Program-made: the position numbers and the translations under genes | Origin: Candidatus Blastococcus massiliensis AP3 | Lineage (GTDB): Bacteria; Actinomycetota; Actinomycetes; Mycobacteriales; Geodermatophilaceae | Direction: 5' to 3' | DNA: 64,000 bases | Assembly (NCBI RefSeq): GCF_000582785.1 | Contig: NZ_HG931174.1 | Location: 84,273-148,272 of the forward strand | In this document: positions 21,492 through 31,613 of the stretch, in pieces | How positions within the stretch are numbered: the stretch's first letter is position 1 | Layout: each line of letters begins with the position of its first letter | Notes under the pieces: model-generated | What the model saw: only the letters and a program-made list of their open reading frames with translations | The model's database searches: none | Told to the model about the DNA's origin: nothing

Positions 21492-22220
21492 GTGCGGCCG
21501 TTCCTGCTGCTCTCCTCCCGCCCCGAGGACGAGGCGGCCGACGAGGAGTACGCCTCGTTCCTGCGCTTCACCGGTTTGCCCGCCGACCGGCTCCGCCGGA
21601 TCCGTCTGGAGGGCGGCCCGCTGCCCGCCCTCGACCTGGACGGCTACGCCGGGGTCCTGCTGGGCGGCGGGCCGTTCAACTCCAGCGACGCCGACGACGA
21701 GAAGTCCCCGGTCCAGCTGCGGGTGGAGCGCGAGGTCAGCGGGCTGCTCGACGAGATCGTCGGGCGGGACCTGCCCTTCTTCGGCGCCTGCTACGGGATC
21801 GGCACCCTGGGGACCCACCAGGGCGGCGTCGTCGACCGGACGTACGGCGAGCCGGTGTCGGCGGTCGAGCTGACGCTCACGCCGGAGGGTCGGGCCGACC
21901 CGCTCCTCGCCGGCGTGCCCGACCGGTTCGAGGCGTTCGTCGGCCACAAGGAGGCCTGCCGCGTCCTGCCCCCTCGCGCGGTGCTGCTGGCCTCGTCGCC
22001 GGCCTGCCCGGTGCAGATGTTCAGGGTGGGCGACAACGTCTACGCCACCCAGTTCCACCCGGAGCTCGACGTGCCCGGGATCGTGCAGCGGGTGCACATC
22101 TACCAGGACGCCGGCTACTTCCCACCGTCCGAGCTCGAGGCGGTCATCGCCCGGCTGACGCCCGCGGTGGTCACCCACCCCCCACGCCTGCTGGCGAACT
22201 TCGTGGCCCGCTACGGCTGA
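21492..22220 (+). CDS. Class I glutamine amidotransferase (GMP synthase-like stand-alone)
   Basis: A 242-residue class I glutamine amidotransferase domain with nucleophile Cys in FFGACYGIGTLG and catalytic His in ATQFHPELD, followed by the Glu of the triad. It resembles the YfeJ/GuaA-like stand-alone glutaminases rather than a subunit with an obvious partner, and no synthetase domain lies adjacent. Some relatives are gamma-glutamyl hydrolases. The Gly preceding the Cys is replaced by Ala-Cys-Tyr as in that subgroup. GTG 21492 follows the ABM stop by five bases. The 3' end overlaps cimA tail to tail by 10 bp. Confidence 0.85.
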   Translation: MRPFLLLSSRPEDEAADEEYASFLRFTGLPADRLRRIRLEGGPLPALDLDGYAGVLLGGGPFNSSDADDEKSPVQLRVEREVSGLLDEIVGRDLPFFGACYGIGTLGTHQGGVVDRTYGEPVSAVELTLTPEGRADPLLAGVPDRFEAFVGHKEACRVLPPRAVLLASSPACPVQMFRVGDNVYATQFHPELDVPGIVQRVHIYQDAGYFPPSELEAVIARLTPAVVTHPPRLLANFVARYG

Positions 22221-23797
22221 GGGTGGCGCAGGACGGCGTAGGTCAGGGCGTCGACCAGCGCGTGCCACGACGCCTCGACGATGTTGGCGTGGACACCGAC
22301 GGTGGTCCACTCCCCCACGCCGTCGGTGGTGTCGATGAGCACCCGGGTGGTCGCGCTGGTGCCGCCCTTCCAGCCGAGGATGCGGACCTTGTAGTCGGCC
22401 AGGGCGACGTCGGCCAGCTGGGGGTAGCGGTGCACCAGCGCCTGCCGCAGCGCGTTGTCCAGCGCGTTGACCGGCCCGTTGCCCTCCGCGGTGCTGATCA
22501 CCCGCTCGCCGTCGACGTGCACCTTCACCGTCGCCTCGCTGACCACGACGCCGTTGCCCCAGTGCTCGACGGAGGTCTTGTAGCTCTCCAGCTCGAACAG
22601 CGGTGGCGGGGCGTCCGGGAGCTGGCCGCGCAGGAGGAGCTCGAAGGAGGCGTCCGCGGCCTCGAACGACCAGCCGTCGGCCTCGAGCACCTTCACCTGG
22701 TCGACGACGCGGCCGATGGCGTCGGACTGACCCGCAAGGTCCACGCCGAGCTCTCGTCCCTTGAGCTCCACCGAGGCGCGGCCGGCCATCTCGGTCACCA
22801 GGATGCGCATGTCGTTGCCGACGACGGCCGGGTCGAGGTGGTTGTACAGCTCGGGGCTCACCTTGATCGCGCTGGCGTGGAGCCCCGCCTTGTGCGCGAA
22901 CGCCGAGGCCCCGACGTAGGGCTGGTGGTCGTCGGGCGCGATGTTGGCCAGCTCGGCGATCGCGTGGCTCACCCGCTGCAGCTCGGGCAGGCACTCGGCC
23001 GGGACCGCCGGGATGCCCATCTTGGTGACCAGGTTGCCGATCAGCGCGAACGTGTCGGCGTTGCCGGCCCGCTCGCCGTAGCCGTTCGCCGTTCCCTGCA
23101 CGTGGGTGACGCCGGCCTCGACGGCGGCCAGGGTGTTGGCCACCGCGCAGCCGGTGTCGTCCTGGCAGTGGATGCCCAGCTTCCCGCTCACCCGCGAGCG
23201 CACCTCGGCCACGACCCGGCCGACGCCCATCGGCAGCATGCCGCCGTTGGTGTCGCACAGGACGCCGACCTCGGCGCCGGCGTCGAACGCGGCCTGCAGC
23301 ACGCGCACCCCGTAGTCGGGGTCGGCGGCGTGGCCGTCGAAGAAGTGCTCGCAGTCGAGGAACACCCGCCGGCCGCGTGCGACGAGGAAGGCGACGGTGT
23401 CGGCGACCATGGCCAGGTTCTCCTCCGGCGTCGTCCGCAGCGCCTCGCGGACGTGCCGGACGTCGGACTTCGCGACCAGGCAGACGACCGGCGACCCGGC
23501 GTCGAGCAGGGCCCGCACCTGCGGGTCCTCCTCGACGCGCACGCCGGCCTTGCGGGTCGACCCGAACGCCACCAGTTGCGCGTGCTTCAGGTCGAGTTCG
23601 GTGCGGGCGCGGGAGAAGAACTCCGTGTCCTTGGGCAGTGCGCCCGGCCAGCCACCCTCGATGAACCCGACCCCGATCTCGTCCAGCAGCCGGGCGACGG
23701 CGAGCTTGTCCGCGACGGAGTAGCTGATGCCCTCCCGCTGGGCGCCGTCGCGCAGGGTGGTGTCGAAGACGTGGAAGTCGGTCTCGCTGGTGGTCAT
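22211..23797 (-). CDS. cimA: (R)-citramalate synthase
   Basis: CimA condenses pyruvate with acetyl-CoA to citramalate, giving a threonine-independent route to 2-oxobutyrate and isoleucine. The 528-residue protein has the HMGL-like barrel FHVFDTTLRDGAQREGISYSV, the metal HCQDDTGCAVAN block, CDTNGG, and a C-terminal LeuA dimer (allosteric) domain with KVRILGWKGGTSATTRVLIDT. VTHVQGTANGYGERAGN is the CimA/LeuA/homocitrate signature; the RDGAQREG and long C-domain fit the citramalate synthase subgroup better than 2-isopropylmalate synthase. ATG 23797 follows AGGAG at good spacing. A leader peptide and attenuator lie upstream (23834-23921), supporting a role in isoleucine synthesis. Confidence 0.92.
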   Translation of the reverse strand: MTTSETDFHVFDTTLRDGAQREGISYSVADKLAVARLLDEIGVGFIEGGWPGALPKDTEFFSRARTELDLKHAQLVAFGSTRKAGVRVEEDPQVRALLDAGSPVVCLVAKSDVRHVREALRTTPEENLAMVADTVAFLVARGRRVFLDCEHFFDGHAADPDYGVRVLQAAFDAGAEVGVLCDTNGGMLPMGVGRVVAEVRSRVSGKLGIHCQDDTGCAVANTLAAVEAGVTHVQGTANGYGERAGNADTFALIGNLVTKMGIPAVPAECLPELQRVSHAIAELANIAPDDHQPYVGASAFAHKAGLHASAIKVSPELYNHLDPAVVGNDMRILVTEMAGRASVELKGRELGVDLAGQSDAIGRVVDQVKVLEADGWSFEAADASFELLLRGQLPDAPPPLFELESYKTSVEHWGNGVVVSEATVKVHVDGERVISTAEGNGPVNALDNALRQALVHRYPQLADVALADYKVRILGWKGGTSATTRVLIDTTDGVGEWTTVGVHANIVEASWHALVDALTYAVLRHPQP

Positions 23798-23833
23798 GGG
23801 AACTCCTGGGAAGGTGCTGCCGGCCCGAACACG

Positions 23834-23861
23834 AAAAAGACCCCCCGGGTACGGGAGGTCT
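23834..23861 (-). terminator. Intrinsic attenuator terminator in the cimA leader
   Basis: Read leftwards, arms AGACCTCCCG and CGGGGGGTCT (10 bp with one G-U) close over loop TACC, followed at once by TTTTT. It lies 36 bp before the cimA ATG and after a short leader ORF, so it can only act by premature termination. A U-tracted terminator is notable in such GC-rich DNA. Confidence 0.85.
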
Positions 23862-23889
23862 GCGCGCAGTCGAGGAGGGGACTGCGCGC
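23862..23889 (-). promoter_or_regulatory. Leader hairpin preceding the cimA attenuator
   Basis: Arms GCGCGCAGTC and GACTGCGCGC (10 bp, perfect) flank an 8-base loop. The 5' arm begins inside the leader peptide TAG stop, and the 3' arm ends directly against the terminator stem. A ribosome held on the Ile codons would cover its 5' arm; one that finishes would sit over it too briefly. I cannot see a convincing separate antiterminator, so the exact switch is open. Confidence 0.65.
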
Positions 23890-23921
23890 TACACGATGAT
23901 GATCGAGCGGGTGGCGTACAT
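23889..23921 (-). CDS. Leader peptide of cimA attenuator (MYATRSIIIV)
   Basis: A ten-codon ORF from ATG 23921 to TAG 23889-23891 encodes MYATRSIIIV: three consecutive Ile (ATC) codons and a Val immediately before the stop. It is the only sizeable Ile run nearby and lies directly before the attenuator hairpins of an isoleucine-pathway gene. The ribosome-binding site is weak. A longer version starting at an upstream in-frame GTG (adding VRALLVA) is possible. The role is by analogy with ilv/leu leader peptides of other bacteria. Confidence 0.75.
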   Translation of the reverse strand: MYATRSIIIV

Positions 23922-31416: not shown

Positions 31417-31486
31417 CTCGGGGTCTCTCCTGGGCCGTGCTGGACGAGTGCGGGTGCCGCCGGGTGTCGACAGGCTGACGGGCAAC

Positions 31487-31519
31487 AAAAAACCCCTCGT
31501 GCCGCGGGCACGGAGGGGT
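31487..31519 (-). terminator. Intrinsic attenuator terminator in the ilvB leader
   Basis: Read leftwards, ACCCCTCCGTGCC pairs with GGCACGAGGGGT (one bulged base) over loop CGC, and the stem runs into TTTTTT. It sits 71 bp before the ilvB ATG, downstream of a leader ORF, as in the cimA leader. Confidence 0.88.
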
Positions 31520-31521
31520 CA

Positions 31522-31548
31522 GCGCGTCGGTCGGGAGGACCGACGCGC
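31522..31548 (-). promoter_or_regulatory. Leader hairpin preceding the ilvB attenuator
   Basis: Arms GCGCGTCGGTC and GACCGACGCGC (11 bp, perfect) flank loop CTCCC. Its 5' arm starts at the last base of the leader stop codon (TAG) and its 3' arm ends two bases before the terminator stem. The layout is the same as at cimA, including the shared sequence TAGCGCG at the stop. Confidence 0.7.
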
Positions 31549-31613
31549 TAGGCGACTACGAGGACGCTGCGGGAGCAGCCGTCGACGAGCAGGCAGACGT
31601 GGGGCACCTGCAC
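31548..31613 (-). CDS. Leader peptide of ilvB attenuator (Val/Leu-rich)
   Basis: From GTG 31613, seven to eight bases after GGAGG, 21 codons run to TAG 31548-31550, ending SVLVVA. Besides the start there are six Val and three Leu codons and no Ile; one Val uses GTA, rare in this genome. GTG 31607 and 31628 are alternative starts. The composition, the position before hairpin-plus-terminator and the target gene ilvB indicate ribosome-mediated attenuation. This is inference from structure; no homologous sequence was compared. Confidence 0.75.
   Translation of the reverse strand: MQVPHVCLLVDGCSRSVLVVA

Follow-up and report, generated by a model that had tools for sequence, protein, structure and literature searches.

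The short open reading frame, hairpin and terminator in front of the citramalate synthase gene cimA very probably form a ribosome-mediated transcription attenuator, which would adjust cimA expression to how much charged isoleucine tRNA is available. This judgement covers the core attenuator claim; the way in which a stalled ribosome might block the terminator is graded separately below. Citramalate synthase catalyzes the committing step of the threonine-independent isoleucine route. Sequence comparison establishes the mini-ORF, its isoleucine codons, two covarying hairpins, their spacing, the position before cimA and the matching of codons to genes.

All elements of the leader and cimA itself lie on the minus strand of the window, the 64,000-nucleotide stretch of DNA that was analyzed (Table 1); the sequence-only reading gave no strand. 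The leader ORF reads ATG TAC GCC ACC CGC TCG ATC ATC ATC GTG TAG, with ATC ATC ATC GTG TAG as the regulatory block, and the G of its stop codon is the first base of hairpin 1. This hairpin consists of GCGCGCAGTC (23889-23880), the loop CCCTCCTC and GACTGCGCGC (23871-23862). The predicted terminator follows with a spacing of 0 nt and is composed of AGACCTCCCG (23861-23852), TACC, CGGGGGGTCT (23847-23838) and a T run to 23834. The sequence-only reading had described the ORF MYATRSIIIV, with three consecutive Ile codons, a Val codon and the stop, followed by a perfect 10-bp hairpin, a U-tracted terminator and cimA. Each of these elements was confirmed, the gene by its match to TIGR00977.

Table 1. 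Features of the cimA leader region and of the related ilvB leader, in window coordinates.
Feature	Position	Strand	Details	Basis
-10-like TTTACT	23934-23929	-	7 nt before leader ATG	read from sequence
Leader ORF MYATRSIIIV*	23921-23889	-	10 codons; ATG 23921, TAG 23891-23889	
Hairpin 1	23889-23862	-	perfect 10 bp	folding and covariation
Intrinsic terminator (predicted)	23861-23834	-	10 bp and T run	folding, terminator scan
Shine-Dalgarno-like AGGAG of cimA	23803-23807	-		read from sequence
cimA, citramalate synthase, target gene	22214-23797	-	ATG 23797	TIGR00977, 613.2 bits (cut-off 450)
ilvB sister leader	31470-31565	-	ilvB ATG 31416	model R1, 44.6 bits, E = 7e-11 in the window

Upstream of the leader on the same strand are leuB and ilvC, assigned by family matches, a gene recognized by eye that we take to be serA, and ilvB, whose protein aligns with that of locus L260, which fits acetolactate synthase models. 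Elsewhere in the genome, a threonine ammonia-lyase match over the cut-off was found (G000:C1:1174152-1175282, minus strand). Because of this match, cimA need not be the only isoleucine route of the genome, and both routes to 2-oxobutanoate may coexist.

The leader RNA folds with an energy of -54.7 kcal/mol compared with a mean of -40.7 kcal/mol for shuffled sequences (z = -4.1), and none of 200 shuffles did as well. Three overlapping terminator-like sites were found, against 0.1 expected. Isoleucine makes up 2.7% of the codons in the 35 long ORFs of the window, and three in a row at a fixed place are therefore expected at about 2e-5 per position. A search of Rfam release 15 at the gathering score returned only three tRNAs in the window and no match to the leader. 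The best sub-threshold scores on the leader strand were 20.8 bits for ar14 (gathering 58.8) and 20.7 bits for Phe_leader (gathering 55), and a known RNA family was rejected as the identity of the leader as none matched at threshold. We regard conservation in relatives as the decisive point for the leader being real.

Within the Geodermatophilaceae, a leader was present at 28 of the 30 loci retrieved with the protein model of cimA. One exception, L007, has no leader, and at the other, L034, the contig ends about 40 nt upstream. An alignment of 27 family leaders (A1) is 81% identical per column; its invariant TAGCGCGC arises by construction, the row-picking script having required it. The covariance model built from A1, R1, matched 108 of 112 family genomes at E ≤ 0.1, a count that takes in ilvB leaders. 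When paired by coordinates, 98 of the 103 family cimA places (102 genomes) had a strong match 25-446 nt upstream, and five had no leader match (G074, G060 (contig end), G072, G065 and G070). A covariance search upstream of cimA in other Geodermatophilaceae was the check proposed with the sequence-only reading, which a leader not conserved between close relatives would have contradicted; by locus and by cimA place, conservation was what the search found.

The leader extends well beyond the family. R1 matched 268 of 397 genomes of the order at E ≤ 0.1, family members included, and cimA follows at all 20 non-family order loci that were chosen by leader score among the matches listed. These 20 order leaders and 20 family leaders were used to build a second model, R2. 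Both models contain the Ile columns, and the leaders found with them are biased towards Ile. R2 matched 248 of 394 class genomes at E ≤ 0.01, some of the matches being ilvB leaders, whereas 310 of these 394 genomes contain cimA. Among the matches listed, 150 of which were to the leader, all 90 checkable ones lie 19-157 nt (median 60) upstream of cimA on the same strand; checkable are those in genomes whose cimA place is also among the matches listed, and the other 60 could not be checked in this way. Again among the matches listed, 60 of 150 cimA genomes had no listed leader match. The sets chosen by protein (the 30 family loci and a further set of 80) were selected independently of the leader, which was then recognized by pattern or by R2. 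Seventy-five of these 80 loci carry it within up to 600 nt upstream of cimA; of the remaining five, contig ends account for L162 and L189 but not for L193, L198 and L213.

Carriers include Blastococcus, Geodermatophilus, Modestobacter, Klenkia, Micromonospora, Actinoplanes, Dactylosporangium, Lentzea, Saccharothrix, Kutzneria, Actinophytocola and many metagenome assemblies. Nonomuraea gerenzanensis also has cimA with the leader, on an 11.85-Mb replicon that was submitted as a plasmid. A large-genome family with the leader (f33) is probably Streptomyces; 71-86 bases of its cimA are 82-89% identical to Streptomyces records. Three plasmid-borne Streptomyces cimA copies (L235, L236 and L237) have no leader; their neighbors include, for example, a gene for a condensation-domain protein or an oxidoreductase. 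Lying next to other biosynthetic genes and lacking the leader, these copies look as if freed from isoleucine control. The final set comprised 156 distinct leaders from the 164 rows of A3, A4 and A6, with L137 and L146 dropped as ilvB leaders. cimA follows 154 of them, and for L120 and L153 no cimA match was found in the 200 nt downstream that were examined.

Covariation was assessed in two alignments, both fitted to a model of this structure and hence leaning towards it. In the 40 order leaders of A3, 96.1% of the pair cells are paired and seven pairs change on both sides. In A4, which holds 51 class sequences including the two ilvB leaders, 95.7% are paired and 13 pairs change on both sides. 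Every slid control was far lower than the real pairing, and on these alignments both hairpins covary. As in an attenuator, a predicted intrinsic terminator lies between ORF and gene, with covarying stems. The lowest four pairs of hairpin 1 are invariant in the 40 order leaders, while its loop varies from 3 to 55 nt across leaders. In minimum-energy folds of the 156 leaders, hairpin 1 and the terminator are separated by 0 nt in 145 cases, by 1 nt in 10 and by 2 nt in one. At terminator pair 6 (23856 with 23843 in the window), a mid-stem U-G wobble is kept in 35 of 40 sequences of A3 and 32 of 50 of A4, as if full strength were avoided.

The isoleucine codons hold a fixed position in the predicted short ORF, as expected of an ORF that carries codons for the end product. 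At least two in-frame Ile codons stand just before hairpin 1 in 148 of the 156 leaders and one in the other eight, compared with an average of 0.013 Ile codons per frame in the other frames. In 150 leaders, an Ile codon falls between -12 and -9, counted from the first paired base, and most Ile codons are 8-14 nt upstream of the hairpin. The ORF has two forms. In the short one (120 of 156), the stop codon is at -5 to +1 and the ORF reaches only to the foot of hairpin 1; in the long one (36 of 156), the stop is at +7 to +23 and the ORF extends into the hairpin. Leader stops are TAG in 128 cases, TGA in 23 and TAA in five; those of the 35 long ORFs of the window are TGA in 23, TAG in 10 and TAA in two. 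Non-family leaders use ATT for isoleucine 166 times and ATC 122 times. ATT accounts for none of the 466 Ile codons in the long ORFs of the window, a figure that describes the background of the window rather than that of the other genomes.

The codon block changes with the gene. About 7.7 kb upstream of the cimA leader, the window contains a sister leader before ilvB, with the codons GTC CTC GTA GTC GCC TAG (VLVVA*), a hairpin and a terminator; read by eye, this hairpin has 11 bp and a 1-nt spacer to the terminator. The idea that every model match is a cimA leader was rejected, as all 20 second matches fetched from family genomes precede ilvB. Their peptides, read from the printed sequence, end in LVVA*, LVIA*, LVVIA*, LVVID* or LVIS*, and hairpin 1 begins at their stop codon. 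In the phylum, R2 matched 40 of 149 genomes at E ≤ 0.001, and 20 matches were fetched, 19 of them outside the class. Thirteen have ilvB downstream (behind another ORF in L276), and Val codons are present in all 13, mostly together with Leu and/or Ile and once with Phe. Two precede cimA and have four Ile codons in a row; one precedes leuA and has three Leu codons. Two further matches from other actinobacterial classes (L280 and L281) have three Ile codons before a leuB-ilvE-cimA run, in which the gene named ilvE by eye is presumably that gene. For the remaining two, L264 and L272, the downstream gene could not be tied to the pathway; the one behind L272, judged by eye, resembles isocitrate lyase. 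A weaker model match, L283 (FVAIA*), stands before a gene that by eye also resembles isocitrate lyase; it may be a chance match or a further use of the leader layout.

The codons therefore follow the pathway: Ile before cimA operons, Val, Leu and Ile before ilvB, and Leu before one leuA. That the codons are exchanged while the RNA layout stays the same is the strongest indication of a ribosome sensing the supply of an amino acid. Together with the wide conservation, this exchange supports the attenuation reading that had been made from the window by itself.

A promoter-like element points to a transcript that starts with the ORF. Of the 32 family leaders, 28 have an ACT whose last base lies 6-9 nt ahead of an in-frame start codon (ATG or GTG), compared with 1.7 expected by shuffling. 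Among the 123 non-family leaders, 121 have a NANNNT hexamer 5-9 nt before an in-frame ATG or GTG, against 28.9 expected. This hexamer is not enriched in family leaders (7 of 32, with 5.8 expected), and TTTACT of the window does not fit it. A NANNNT test on all 156 leaders (131 found, 51.6 expected) was discarded, as it had taken a wrong upstream start for the leader of the window; repeated by group, it showed that family leaders use a different hexamer from the others. A consensus scan found no sigma-70 promoter. The -10-like ACT or NANNNT sits just before the ORF start, which suggests a leader mRNA with its 5' end at the leader ATG or next to it. Upstream of 13 of the 156 leaders, for example L067, L069 and L076, there is an inverted repeat of the type TCTCAC-N-GTGAGA, with 0.9 expected; it may be a site for an IclR-type regulator.

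The start site, the termination and the direction of the response in the following scheme are deduced from these sequence features. Transcription would begin at the leader ATG or next to it, with a ribosome starting on the mini-ORF behind the RNA polymerase. With plentiful isoleucine, the ribosome would pass the Ile codons to the stop codon and cover the 5' strand of hairpin 1, or run into the hairpin loop in leaders of the long form; the terminator would form and transcription would end before cimA. With scarce isoleucine, the ribosome would stall at the Ile codons with its reach ending at the foot of hairpin 1, and cimA would be transcribed. A distance of 8-14 nt is about what a ribosome covers ahead of its A site. 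With the Ile codons at this distance and the stop on the hairpin, a stalled ribosome should leave hairpin 1 free and a finishing ribosome should remove it. As the ON state is expected upon stalling, hairpin 1 should oppose the terminator.

How it might do so is the least certain step. The conserved relation between the two hairpins is near-zero spacing and a GC-rich foot, and a steric block at the polymerase exit is proposed for this reason: hairpin 1, whose GCGCGC foot directly abuts the terminator, would itself be the ON structure and would stop the terminator from closing there. We favor this step tentatively. It is opposed by the folded leader RNA of the window, in which hairpin 1 and the terminator coexist, and no precedent for a terminator blocked sterically by an adjoining hairpin was found in the literature searched. 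A broader and even more tentative proposal is that of a modular attenuator used throughout the actinobacterial phylum, switching without alternative base pairing, with the hairpin as the ON structure and a ribosome on the stop codon removing it. One chassis, comprising a codon block, a stop fused to a GCGCGC-footed hairpin and a terminator at 0 nt, would then be fitted with codons for the amino acid that is made.

Masking of RNA parts as by a ribosome allowed the energy of losing the terminator to be calculated for the 156 leaders. With no ribosome, the median cost is 11.6 kcal/mol and 11 leaders are below 5 kcal/mol. With the RNA upstream of hairpin 1 masked, as by a stalled ribosome, the cost is at least 11.9 kcal/mol in every leader (median 18.0). 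When the 5' arm of hairpin 1 is masked instead, which mimics a ribosome at the stop codon, the median falls to 7.3 kcal/mol, and 45 leaders are below 5 kcal/mol. These costs bear on a classical three-state attenuator, in which the stalled ribosome bars hairpin 1 and its C-rich loop pairs with the 3' arm of the terminator as antiterminator (CCTCCCC with the GGGGGG arm); with isoleucine present, hairpin 1 would act as anti-antiterminator and the terminator would follow. Such pairing has been described between the P1 loop and the P2 right shoulder of the Corynebacterium ilvB-II motif, in the part of that report available (PMC10272879). Family loops are 72% C and 3% G and average 3.4 kcal/mol better than random G+C-rich loops, and once the 5' arm is masked, the most stable fold of the 32 family leaders that lacks the terminator lies only 3.7 kcal/mol (median) above the terminator; the 45 leaders within 5 kcal/mol agree with this reading. 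Nevertheless, against shuffled loops with an unchanged base composition the family loop gains only 1.5 kcal/mol (P = 0.41). In the 124 leaders from other families, the terminator-free fold costs 8.9 kcal/mol and the natural loops do not outperform random ones (P = 0.47), although the rest of the layout stays constant. Furthermore, a ribosome stalled at the first of the Ile codons should, going by the usual footprint, leave hairpin 1 free, and the terminator is then costly to lose in all 156 leaders. We therefore consider the classical scheme unlikely. Loop-to-terminator pairing or a pseudoknot was dropped as the general mechanism and retained mainly for the family: the folding suggests that a classical antiterminator is possible in Geodermatophilaceae leaders but does not belong to what is conserved at the core of the design. 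Classical 2:3 pairing, between the terminator 5' arm and RNA upstream of it, was also rejected, with five or more pairs in only four of 156 terminator-free folds. The G-rich 3' arm has five or more such pairs in 148 of 156, which was given no weight, since partners for a run of G are easy to come by and non-family loops behave as random.

Two readings would give the ribosome little or no part. The hairpins might be a tandem terminator or insulator against transcription from leuB, with an incidental mini-ORF. leuB does lie upstream on the same strand, and hairpin clusters serve as bacterial terminators, according to the available portion of PMC8355165. The in-frame Ile codons of 148 leaders, the switching of codons with the gene, the -10-like element directly before the ORF start and a placement ahead of cimA that stays the same across many families make this reading the least credible of all. 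Alternatively, a protein or small molecule might read the conserved GCGCGCAGACCTC...GGTCTTTTT, leaving a minor part to the ORF. The foot of hairpin 1 and the terminator are indeed conserved as sequence beyond what pairing requires, but at the class level terminator and hairpin positions covary (13 pairs changed on both sides), no Rfam family matched at threshold and codon identity tracks the gene; we rate it as very improbable. The ribosome-mediated attenuator is the preferred reading, with a qualification. The cimA leader appears to work like such an attenuator, but the antiterminator that defines the type was sought and not generally found. The claim of the sequence-only reading that all elements of ribosome-mediated attenuation are there holds for ORF, codons and terminator. 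As to a conserved antiterminator it is too strong, because the candidate, the C-rich loop with the GGGGGG arm, is not conserved outside the Geodermatophilaceae. It had remarked that this pairing is not obvious; the pairing can be drawn in that family and is not detectable elsewhere.

If the attenuator reading is true, a widespread and well-studied bacterial group has an unnoticed isoleucine switch before a central gene. The natural variants, with short and long ORFs, loops of 3-55 nt and Ile, Leu or Val blocks, form a ready set for experiments, and the element could serve as part of an amino-acid biosensor. The sequence-only reading knew of no described isoleucine leader of cimA in this group, and the literature searched (titles and abstract openings) likewise yielded no cimA leader and no RNA-level control of cimA. 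A Methanothermobacter paper (PMC13158618) reportedly contains the words citramalate synthase, leader peptide and attenuation. The available portions of PMC2965389, PMC11109978, PMC10272879, PMC8079986 and PMC1262725 treat leaders of ilvB, leuA, leuS, trp and others, with none for cimA; the word cimA is absent from the main text of the first three and citramalate from that of the first two.

Several actinobacterial leaders resemble the one described here. The ilvB leaders of Seliverstov et al. (2005; PMC1262725) likewise combine a short ORF of branched-chain codons, a U-tracted terminator and a biosynthesis gene. The targets in the text available from that paper are ilvB, leuA and leuS, with no mention of citramalate synthase or of a zero-spacer hairpin pair, whereas the target here is cimA. 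The same text states that the mode of action of these leaders is unclear and that altering the candidate regulatory codons of S. coelicolor ilvB had no effect, which counts against an attenuator. The question raised there in 2005, on leader peptides seemingly without attenuator elements, would become testable if our reading is true.

The ilvBNC attenuator of C. glutamicum also has a leader peptide, a first hairpin and a terminator, and the accessible part of PMC11857589 reports transcription starting one nucleotide from the leader start codon. Loss of that codon reduced expression by 80% (PMC11857589, same part), the opposite of what the steric model predicts for the cimA leader; the C. glutamicum leader is, however, laid out differently. 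In Corynebacterium ilvB-II, most of P1 lies within the uORF and the terminator overlaps the antiterminator (PMC10272879, in part), whereas in the cimA leaders the Ile codons come before hairpin 1. An antiterminator of this loop-to-terminator type can also be drawn for Geodermatophilaceae leaders. Nevertheless, the cimA leaders do not belong to that motif: the ORF ends at the hairpin 1 foot in most of them (120 of 156), the gene is cimA and the loop pairing is not conserved.

The IlvL, LeuL and TrpL leaders of S. lividans are reported to be leaderless in the excerpted PMC8079986, and the same is suggested for the cimA leader. The eight S. lividans leaders shown from Table 4 of that source are without cimA, while our class search finds the cimA leader in probable Streptomyces. 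The ilvB1 attenuator of M. tuberculosis (PMC13236596, consulted in part) also has a branched-chain uORF and a terminator. It controls a different gene and, unlike the cimA leader, has a predicted antiterminator hairpin that excludes the terminator. Its logic, in which a ribosome at the stop codon prevents the antiterminator and a stalled one permits it, is that of the model favored for cimA.
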